In this document: piece by piece, positions 29,794 through 33,176 of the stretch | Layout of the letters: each line of letters opens with the position of its first letter | Numbering within the stretch: position 1 is the stretch's first letter | NCBI GenBank assembly: GCA_902500805.1 | Contig: CABVSA010000003.1 | Coordinates: 1-64,000, forward strand | Reading direction: 5' to 3' | Origin: an uncultured Nitrospira sp. | GTDB taxonomy: Bacteria; Nitrospirota; Nitrospiria; Nitrospirales; Nitrospiraceae | DNA: 64,000 bases | Notes under the pieces: generated by a model | Databases searched by the model: none | Told to the model about the DNA's origin: nothing | The model's input: the letters and a program-made list of their open reading frames with translations, nothing else | Translations under genes and position numbers: made by a program

Positions 29794-30192
29794 ATGAAGG
29801 TCACCAAACTGCTCCATACCCGCATGCGGGTCAGCGACCTGGATGAAACCATCCAGTTTTATACAAGCGTGCTGGGTCTTGAGGTCATTGAACGGAAAAC
29901 ATCTCCTCGTGGATCACACCTTGCTTTCTTAAAGGTGCCCAACAGCGACGAGCTAATCGAACTAACCAGTTTTCCTCCTAGCGGGCCAGTGAAGGTGCAG
30001 GAAGATCTGGTCCATCTGGCCTTCCAAGTTGACAATCTCGACGAGACAATCGCCTCGCTCAATGCCATAGGGATCAAGATTACCGATGGCCCAACGAAGA
30101 CTTCTTCCGGGAGCCGGTTTATCTTCATCGATGCGCCGGACGGTTACGAGATTGAGTTGATCGAACGGCCGGCAGGCGTGAAGATCGTTTGA
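29794..30192 (+). CDS. VOC family protein, glyoxalase I-like
   Basis: 132 residues with two beta-alpha-beta-beta-beta modules. H8 (L-L-H-T-R-M-R-V), a Glu in E-L-I-E-L-T-S, H74 (V-H-L-A-F-Q-V) and a late Glu (Y-E-I-E-L-I-E) fit the four metal ligands of lactoylglutathione lyase. It could detoxify methylglyoxal, but other VOC activities cannot be excluded. Monocistronic by spacing. Confidence 0.85.
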   Translation: MKVTKLLHTRMRVSDLDETIQFYTSVLGLEVIERKTSPRGSHLAFLKVPNSDELIELTSFPPSGPVKVQEDLVHLAFQVDNLDETIASLNAIGIKITDGPTKTSSGSRFIFIDAPDGYEIELIERPAGVKIV

Positions 30193-30347: not shown

Positions 30348-31217
30348 ATGAAAAACGGGTTTTTCCGCGGGCACGGGCTGGGCAACGATTATATCGTGAT
30401 GGACCCCAAGGAACTGACCTTCAAACTCTCGCCCAAGAACATCAAAGCGGTCTGTGACCGCAATTGGGGGCTAGGCAGCGACGGGATCCTAGCCCTGGTT
30501 CCCTCAAAAAAGGCAGACTTTGGGCTGCGCATTTTTAATCCGGACGGCAGCGAAGCCGAGAAATCAGGAAACGGGCTTCGTATTTTCGCCCGCTACCTCC
30601 ATGCGACCGGGAGGACCAAGAAGAAATACTTCACGGTCGATACAAAAGGTGGGAAAGTGACAATTGCATTGCATGTAGACCGGCATGGCGATGCGGCAGC
30701 TGCAACCGTTGAGATGGGAACCGCCACCTTCAAGCCTGATGCACTCCCCTGCTCATTGGACGTGCCCGAATTGATTCAACAACCGATTGAAGCAGGTGGA
30801 ACTCCCCTGACTTTTACCGGCGTGAGCGTCGGAAACCCCCATTGCGTTGTCTTCAAGCCGGCGGGAGGATCCTGGTCGCGCGAAGAGCTCTTGACACTTG
30901 GGCCGACCCTTGAAAACCACACGCTGTTTCCCAAACGAACCAACGTGCAACTGGCCGTTCCAACCGGACCAAAAGAAATCTTCATTCTGATTTGGGAACG
31001 TGGAGCCGGAGAGACACAGGCCTCCGGTTCATCATCCTGCGCGGCAGCAAGCGTAGCGGTACGTCTCGGGCTGGTAAAGAGCCCTGTGACGGTGAAGATG
31101 CCAGGAGGCACGCTGAATATCGAGGTGGCCTCTGACTTTAACCTCACCATGAAGGGACCAGTGGCCGAGGTGGCGCGAGGCGCCTTGAGCCCGTCGTTTG
31201 TCCGCACGTTGAAATAA
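30348..31217 (+). CDS. diaminopimelate epimerase-like protein, both catalytic Cys replaced by Ser
   Basis: 289 residues with the whole DapF fold: GNDYIVMD, NPDGSEAEKSGNG, SVGNPHCV and RGAGETQASGSSSCA. DapF interconverts LL- and meso-diaminopimelate for lysine and peptidoglycan using two cysteines, found in C-G-N-G and A-C-G-S-G. Here both positions are serine: S73 (codon TCA, 30564-30566) and S226 (codon TCC, 31023-31025). The rest of the pocket is kept and the gene is intact, with a strong ribosome binding site. It may be a Ser-based epimerase, a different racemase, or a non-catalytic paralogue. The fold call is firm and the activity is open. Confidence 0.85.
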   Translation: MKNGFFRGHGLGNDYIVMDPKELTFKLSPKNIKAVCDRNWGLGSDGILALVPSKKADFGLRIFNPDGSEAEKSGNGLRIFARYLHATGRTKKKYFTVDTKGGKVTIALHVDRHGDAAAATVEMGTATFKPDALPCSLDVPELIQQPIEAGGTPLTFTGVSVGNPHCVVFKPAGGSWSREELLTLGPTLENHTLFPKRTNVQLAVPTGPKEIFILIWERGAGETQASGSSSCAAASVAVRLGLVKSPVTVKMPGGTLNIEVASDFNLTMKGPVAEVARGALSPSFVRTLK

Positions 31218-31233: not shown

Positions 31234-31349
31234 AGCTGTCAGCCATCAGCCCGATTGCGGTCTCGAAATTGCTCGCTACTCCTTCGCGCCGTACAATGTA
31301 CAGAATCATCCCATTGTTTCTCTGACCTGAAGGCTGTTAGCTGATGGCT
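31234..31349. repeat. inverted repeat spanning dapF-uvrC spacer
   Basis: CAGCCATCAGC (31237-31247) and GCTGATGGCTG (31339-31349) are perfect complements. Flanking AGCTGT and GGCTGTTA extend the resemblance. The right arm contains the uvrC start codon (gctgATGgctg). Its word family differs from the GTGAAGCG type. Confidence 0.65.
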
Positions 31350-33176
31350 GCCTCATCCGATTTCCAATCTAAACTCGCGCATCTCCCCGATCAACCTGGC
31401 GTCTACCTATTCAAGAACGAACAACGAGACATCATTTACATCGGGAAAGCCGCAGTACTCGCCGACCGGGTCCGATCGTATTTTCAAAAGAGTGCCGACC
31501 ATAGCCCCAAGACTAGTCTGCTCGTCAGTCAGGTGGCCGATCTGGAAACGATGGTGACTCGATCAGAGCTCGAAGCGCTGATTCTCGAAAGCAACCTGGT
31601 CAAGCGTCACAAGCCTCGTTTCAACGTCGTGTTGCGGGACGATAAACAGTATCCCTATGTGCGGTTGCCGATCAAAGAGGACTTTCCTCGACTGTCGATC
31701 GTGCGCCGCGTGCAAAAAGACGGCGCGCTTTACTATGGCCCCTATACCCCAGCGAACGCCCTGCGAGAGACGTTGAAAGTCATCAAGCACGTCTTCCCGC
31801 TTGCCACCTGCACGATCGACATCGATGGCACCGCCGACCGCGCCTGTATCGAGTTTGAAATCAAACGATGCATGGCACCCTGTACTGGTAATCAGTCGAA
31901 AGAGGAGTACCATCAGATCGTCAAACAGGTCCGCCAGTTTCTGGAGGGCCGTGACCACGAGTTGCTGGACGATCTTCGGGCCCGCATGGAGGCCGCATCG
32001 GACCGGGAGGAATTCGAGGAGGCCGCACGGTTACGGGATCGTCTCTTTAAGATCGATCGGATGCTGGAGAAGCAACGGATCACGCAAACTTCAGCCGCTG
32101 ATCAAGATGTGATCGGCCTCTCCAGACAAGGCGCAGCCGTCGATCTCCAGATTCTGTTCGTGCGCGGCGGCTTACTAATTGGGCGGAAAGATTTCTTCTG
32201 GCCTCAGTCGGCTGATGCGTCGGACGAGGAGCTCGTCCGCTCAGCCATCGAACAATTCTATAATAAGGATGGGCAACCCCCGAGAGAACTGCTCATCCCA
32301 ACCGACCTCGAAGACGCGGTACTGATTCAGCAATGGCTATCCGAGAAGCGAGGCGAATCGGTACGTGTGTCCTCGCCAGAGCGAGGCGCCAAACATCAAC
32401 TCGTCCTCTTGGCCGAGGAGAATGCGGCTTCGGCGGTGGCTAATCATTTACGTGACGAAGAACGTGACCGGCAAGCCGGTGAGGAACTGAAGCGGATGCT
32501 GCGACTGGATCAGCCCCCACGTCGCATTGAAGGCTTCGACATCTCCAATACGATGGGCAACCAATCAGTTGCATCAATGGTCGTCTGGGAAGACGGGCAG
32601 ATGAAGAAAGCCGACTATCGGCGGTTCAAGATCCGAACCGTCGTGGGTGCCAACGATTTTGCCAGCATGAAGGAAGTGGTCACACGTCGCTACGGCGAGG
32701 CCGGGGGTGAGTCTGGTGGAACGATGGAGAACCTGGCCCAACCCGATCTGATTCTCATCGACGGCGGATTGGGTCAACTGGCGGCGGCGCTCGAGGGACT
32801 CAAAGCAGTTGGGCAACAGGGCGTACCGATCCTCGGATTGGCCAAGGCCCGTGGCGACAAGGAAGAGCGTGTGTTTCTGGCTGGGAGAAAAAATCCCATC
32901 GCGCTCAAGCCGCAGTCCCCCTCCACCCACCTGCTCCAACGCATCCGCGATGAAGCCCATCGCTTCGCGATCACGTTTCATCGGAAGCTACGCGGCAAAG
33001 CGCTGGTCAGCTCCAAACTCGATCAAGTCATCGGAATCGGTGAGCTACGACGCGATCGACTGCTGAAGCGGTTCGGCAGTCTTGAACAATTGGCCTCAGC
33101 CAGCGATGAGGCGCTGCGGGAGGTTGGACTAAATATGGAAACCGTTGTGAATCTCCGCAAAGTGCTTGGCAGTTGA
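31344..33176 (+). CDS. uvrC: excinuclease ABC subunit C
   Basis: 610 residues, the nucleotide-excision-repair nuclease that incises both sides of a lesion. A GIY-YIG domain at the start (PGVYLFKNEQRDIIYIGKA), a UVR motif (EEFEEAARLRDRLFKI), an RNase H-like domain (EGFDISNTMGNQSVASMVV; LILIDGGLGQL) and a C-terminal HhH region (GIGELRRDRLLKRFGS) are all present. Full length. uvrA lies in the same window at 57124-59631. Confidence 0.98.
   Translation: MAASSDFQSKLAHLPDQPGVYLFKNEQRDIIYIGKAAVLADRVRSYFQKSADHSPKTSLLVSQVADLETMVTRSELEALILESNLVKRHKPRFNVVLRDDKQYPYVRLPIKEDFPRLSIVRRVQKDGALYYGPYTPANALRETLKVIKHVFPLATCTIDIDGTADRACIEFEIKRCMAPCTGNQSKEEYHQIVKQVRQFLEGRDHELLDDLRARMEAASDREEFEEAARLRDRLFKIDRMLEKQRITQTSAADQDVIGLSRQGAAVDLQILFVRGGLLIGRKDFFWPQSADASDEELVRSAIEQFYNKDGQPPRELLIPTDLEDAVLIQQWLSEKRGESVRVSSPERGAKHQLVLLAEENAASAVANHLRDEERDRQAGEELKRMLRLDQPPRRIEGFDISNTMGNQSVASMVVWEDGQMKKADYRRFKIRTVVGANDFASMKEVVTRRYGEAGGESGGTMENLAQPDLILIDGGLGQLAAALEGLKAVGQQGVPILGLAKARGDKEERVFLAGRKNPIALKPQSPSTHLLQRIRDEAHRFAITFHRKLRGKALVSSKLDQVIGIGELRRDRLLKRFGSLEQLASASDEALREVGLNMETVVNLRKVLGS

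Follow-up and report, generated by a model that had tools for sequence, protein, structure and literature searches.

A DapF-like protein of Nitrospira with serine in place of both catalytic cysteines is probably a diaminopimelate epimerase

Diaminopimelate (DAP) epimerase, DapF, is an antibiotic target whose cysteine thiolate chemistry is a textbook example; inhibitors directed at thiols, aziridines among them, depend on its cysteines. The canonical enzymes (TIGR00652; those of H. influenzae, E. coli, Anabaena, and C. glutamicum) contain two catalytic cysteines, one per domain. In structures of complexes, DAP is contacted by a proximal Asn, by Gly-Asn and Gly-Thr backbone, and, at its distal end, by three Asn, a Glu, and an Arg (PMC5296763, PMC12039745). 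The placement of the cysteines at helix ends is thought to lower their pKa, and the Anabaena structure has no basic residue within 4 Å of them (PMC12039745). Disulfide inactivation is known for Corynebacterium DapF (PMC5296763).

Engineered replacement of these cysteines by serine is nearly fatal to activity. In particular, Cys-to-Ser mutants of the DapF relative PddB have less than 0.1% activity (PMC8225329), the same trace activity is cited there for Cys-to-Ser M. tuberculosis DapF, and HisR mutants have greatly reduced activity (PMC11602996), which makes a natural enzyme with serine at both positions (Ser/Ser) surprising. H. influenzae DapF C73S and C217S (PDB 2q9h and 2q9j) carry the same two substitutions singly but, unlike a natural Ser/Ser protein, are laboratory mutants of a thiol-tuned enzyme. 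A natural serine in place of one acid/base cysteine is found in the Ser93/Cys255 4R-hydroxyproline 2-epimerase, which is active in 1,1-proton transfer (PMC4113996); unlike the protein described here, it belongs to the proline racemase superfamily, acts on another substrate, and has one cysteine left. A literature search that covered few subscription-journal papers found no paper on a Ser/Ser DapF.

The DNA analysed here, the window, is a 64,000-nucleotide stretch from an uncultured member of Nitrospira, nitrite and ammonia oxidisers. Its source assembly (G000) comprises 4.3 Mb in 220 contigs and is 93.5% complete. The features of the dapF-like locus are as follows:

29794..30192, + strand: upstream VOC/glyoxalase-like gene, named from sequence; adjoins in the Nitrospira family only; outside the DAP pathway
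30348..31217, + strand: dapF-like gene, Ser/Ser subfamily; intact 289-aa frame; TIGR00652 match
30384..30386, + strand: N13 codon; predicted proximal amine contact (PMC12039745), invariant in all groups
30537..30539, + strand: N64 codon; predicted distal DAP contact (PMC5296763, PMC12039745), invariant
30561..30563, + strand: K72 codon, AAA; Lys in 102/102 Ser/Ser sequences, Met, Phe, or Gln in 51 Cys/Cys sequences
30564..30566, + strand: S73 codon, TCA, in place of the first catalytic Cys; predicted directly before helix 74-86
30996..31001, + strand: E217-R218 codons; predicted distal DAP contacts (PMC5296763, PMC12039745), invariant
31023..31025, + strand: S226 codon, TCC, in place of the second catalytic Cys; predicted directly before helix 227-239
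31026..31040, + strand: G227-S-S-S-C231, at the helix start where canonical enzymes have G-T-G-A-C; S228 and S229 class-specific
31344..33176, + strand: downstream uvrC-like gene, named from sequence; adjoins in the Nitrospira family only; outside the DAP pathway

The gene is a single, complete open frame with an ATG start and a GGAGGAG ribosome-binding site directly 5′ of it. The encoded protein scores 227.6 bits against the NCBIfam equivalog model TIGR00652, twice the cut-off of 114.65, and 179 bits against PF01678, and the solved structures nearest to it by sequence are DAP epimerases. Against NF038284, the model for bifunctional DapF/glutamate racemase, it scores 55.1 bits, below the cut-off of 350. 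S73 and S226 align to the catalytic cysteines of solved DapFs, so that neither domain has its catalytic cysteine. Specifically, the segment N64-P-D-G-S-EAEK-S-G-N-G-L-R departs from the PROSITE PDOC01029 signature (N-x-[DN]-[GS]-[SENGFT]-x(4)-C-[GI]-N-[GA]-x-R, as quoted in PMC8225329) solely at the Cys. An earlier note on this DNA had claimed that serines replace both catalytic cysteines, that the two codons read TCA and TCC, and that the frame is intact, and all of this agrees with what we find.

The protein shares predicted fold, domain order, the tested DAP-contact residues, and pathway context with canonical DapF, and differs from it in the serines at both catalytic positions, in Ile for the conserved Cys79, in class-specific residues, and in a gene position outside the lysA-dapA cluster. 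Because homology, fold, pocket, and context are those of a DapF and the catalytic cysteines are missing, we stop short of the name canonical DapF; from its sequence and predicted structure, it is a Ser/Ser variant of DapF and very probably a working DAP epimerase.

Both serines are invariant within the subfamily. All 113 tblastn matches in Nitrospira, at 112 loci of which three are the window's own gene, are Ser/Ser, including those of N. moscoviensis (L057) and N. defluvii (L068), as are all 102 distinct sequences of the subfamily; close orthologues thus have serine throughout, the reverse of the cysteines that the earlier note named as grounds for refutation. The S73 codon in the 102 sequences is TCC in 47, TCA in 34, TCG in 8, AGC in 8, and TCT in 5, that is, five of the six serine codons, indicating that serine is maintained even as its codon changes. 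The dN/dS of the gene against six orthologues is 0.04–0.09. Invariance across independent genomes, complete ones included, together with the codon turnover and the low dN/dS, rules out, to near certainty, that the gene reflects sequencing error, decay, or a pseudogene, and upholds the earlier claim that the double replacement is not random decay.

The pocket for DAP is retained. N13, N64, G74, N75, N163, N199, E217, R218, and G227 are invariant in 102/102 Ser/Ser sequences, and at position 228 all but one, which has Thr, have Ser (101 sequences); the invariance of the tested contact residues indicates a pocket kept for DAP. An AlphaFold2 model of the protein (pLDDT 93.4) places S73 and S226 directly before their helices, as the cysteines are placed in known DapFs. 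In the PDB it is matched best by DAP epimerases (E 2e-34, TM 0.84–0.87); its fold matches include both H. influenzae single mutants as well as PhzF, proline racemase, and O-ureidoserine racemase. Class-specific residues near the predicted site comprise Y15, S44, P65, K72, I79, S228, and S229. With no basic residue near the Anabaena cysteines, K72 is a candidate activator of S73, which we offer as a guess. C231 is unlikely to be a substitute catalytic cysteine; Cys/Cys enzymes, too, commonly have Cys there, and it is missing from one member of the Ser/Ser subfamily.

The EKSGNG motif around S73 occurs in 137/396 genomes of the phylum, in families f1, f3, f18, and f21 only, and may also occur outside the phylum. 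A single scan of genome contigs yielded only close relatives, a search of viral contigs found no relatives, and one of plasmids found distant DapFs only (38% identity in the best-ranked row). In a tree of 72 DapFs, the 17 Ser/Ser sequences form one long-branched clade with support of 100/100; within it, L154 has a long branch of its own, and its placement is less sure. The S73 codon is AGY in f18 and f21 and almost always TCN in f1 and f3, and thus Ser73 occurs in both serine codon blocks. One g1 genome (G310) has AGC.

A second group, with Ser73 and the second cysteine kept (Ser/Cys), comprises L158, L159, L160, and L177, from genera g16, g13, g18, and g20 of the same family. Like the Ser/Ser protein, these enzymes have Ser at 73 and are the sole DapF of their genome; unlike it, they keep the second cysteine, lie beside lysA, and are nested among Cys/Cys operon-type enzymes, which indicates that Ser73 arose separately there.

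Three f18 genomes (G064, G074, and G083) each have two DapF genes. In G064 (L153, L154), one is Cys/Cys and lies beside lysA, and the other is Ser/Ser, so a different function of the Ser/Ser protein is possible in f18. This G064 Ser/Ser gene sits after a ribulose-phosphate-epimerase-like gene (named from sequence). Extended to the whole subfamily, such a reading would make the Ser/Ser protein a DapF paralogue with another job, be it lyase activity, racemization of another amino acid, or regulation without catalysis, and would leave meso-DAP to an unrecognised enzyme. The coexistence in f18 is consistent with this, as are the near-dead engineered Cys-to-Ser enzymes (PMC11602996, PMC8225329), the other activities hosted by the DapF fold, as in the fold matches above, and the binding of E. 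coli DapF to RppH (PMC4227774), an example of a regulatory role. Against it, every tested DAP-contact residue is invariant, and the genomic context, described below, also speaks against it.

The immediate neighbours of the gene give no hint of another function, and they vary among f1, f3, f21, and f18. DAP genes are absent from the neighbourhood, which counts against the reading as a DAP epimerase. At two loci (L161, 2920-5158; L106, 4796-7034), the Ser/Ser dapF is duplicated in tandem, and the two copies flank a second VOC-like gene.

In Cys/Cys relatives and in Ser/Cys genomes, dapF adjoins lysA and precedes dapA, although in G171 the two are separated by a short ORF. The 13 Ser/Ser genomes that were read have dapA after lysA and lack a dapF at this place, and dapB comes next in 12 of the 13. 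In G000, lysA and dapA share a one-base overlap, and in the two f21 genomes an unrelated 184-aa ORF separates them. ORF picking did not resolve the lysA-dapA order in G190 and G198, which are outside the 13. The absence of dapF beside lysA, with the Ser/Ser gene elsewhere, is what one would expect had the Ser/Ser enzyme assumed the role of the operonic copy before that copy disappeared.

No DapF match other than the Ser/Ser gene is present in G000 or in the single-contig genomes G021, G023, G196, G113, G039, G052, and G077, as judged by homology, a kind of search that epimerases of unknown type escape. The Ser/Ser genomes retain dapA, dapB, lysA, the LL-DAP aminotransferase DapL, and MurE with a DNPR motif. 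Specifically, LysA is matched in 29/29 genomes (28 over cut-off), TIGR03540-type DapL in 23/23 (18 over cut-off, including G000), and the DNPR motif, which is not known to distinguish LL-DAP from meso-DAP, in 23/23. DAP dehydrogenase (Ddh, TIGR01921) is over cut-off in 0/29 genomes. LL-DAP is thus made and meso-DAP needed, and for the conversion of one into the other no enzyme but the Ser/Ser protein is recognisable. Growth of N. moscoviensis in mineral medium (PMC8407350) means that lysine and cell-wall synthesis must run. The lack of a further DapF match, the lack of dapF beside lysA, and the retention of lysA and DapL argue against a paralogue with another job, which we consider unlikely.

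Synthesis of meso-DAP with no epimerase would call for a divergent Ddh or for a D-amino-acid aminotransferase acting on open-chain tetrahydrodipicolinate. Full-length Ddh-like ORFs are present in three genomes (L213, L214, and L215, in G067, G113, and G194), at 113–129 bits, below the curated cut-off, and the TIGR01121 D-amino-acid aminotransferase is over cut-off in 15/17 genomes. However, G000 and most single-contig genomes have no full-length Ddh-like match, DapL is retained, G077 has only the Ser/Ser DapF and no TIGR01121 aminotransferase over cut-off, and the same aminotransferase is found in the Cys/Cys families f2, f4, and f5, where no bypass is needed. We consider such a route very improbable. 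The earlier note had left two possibilities, a working Ser/Ser site or another source of meso-DAP; with no second dapF or Ddh recognised and with DapL, lysA, and MurE present, the first is favoured. Three findings go beyond that note: the fixation of the trait in a whole clade, the absence of dapF from its usual position at lysA, and the separate Ser/Cys DapF of sister genera.

The order Nitrospirales also lacks a recognisable MurI (TIGR00067, over cut-off in 0/236 genomes), and Chlamydia DapF is bifunctional (PMC5885031), raising the idea that glutamate racemization is the main or a second activity of the Ser/Ser protein. However, members of the order with a Cys/Cys or Ser/Cys DapF lack MurI too, D-Glu can be made by a D-amino-acid aminotransferase, and in chlamydial DapF both cysteines are present and the pocket is remodelled (PMC5885031), whereas the DAP pocket is intact here. 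We reject a specific link between Ser/Ser and the missing MurI, since the whole order is without MurI and the aminotransferase is present, and we give glutamate racemization by the Ser/Ser protein hardly any credence. In G000, the TIGR01121 aminotransferase lies at C40:30650-31450 and is a likely source of D-Glu.

Taken with the model, the sequence comparisons favour, at a rough probability of 0.77, a Ser/Ser protein that epimerizes LL-DAP to meso-DAP with a serine–serine acid-base pair and that displaced the operonic cysteine DapF. LL-DAP from DapA, DapB, and DapL would be converted to meso-DAP by the Ser/Ser DapF, and meso-DAP would then be used by MurE and LysA. One serine would take a proton, as an alkoxide or a hydrogen-bonded hydroxyl, and the other would return one. 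Both serines are predicted at helix N-termini, and K72, S228, and S229 may lower their pKa. The epimerase activity, the acid/base roles of the serines, and the contributions of these three residues are what we infer; if the enzyme works, the near-inactivity of engineered Cys-to-Ser mutants means that its native context must compensate. The subfamily would have replaced a cysteine DapF still present next to lysA in relatives. We speculate that a benefit may be a thiol-free site immune to disulfide inactivation.

If this reading is true, a natural Ser/Ser enzyme on which cells depend would indicate that most of the catalysis is due to the pocket rather than to the thiol. The Ser/Ser enzymes would be predicted to be insensitive to thiol-directed inhibitors and to oxidation. 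They would also be a warning that automatic annotation disregards catalytic residues.
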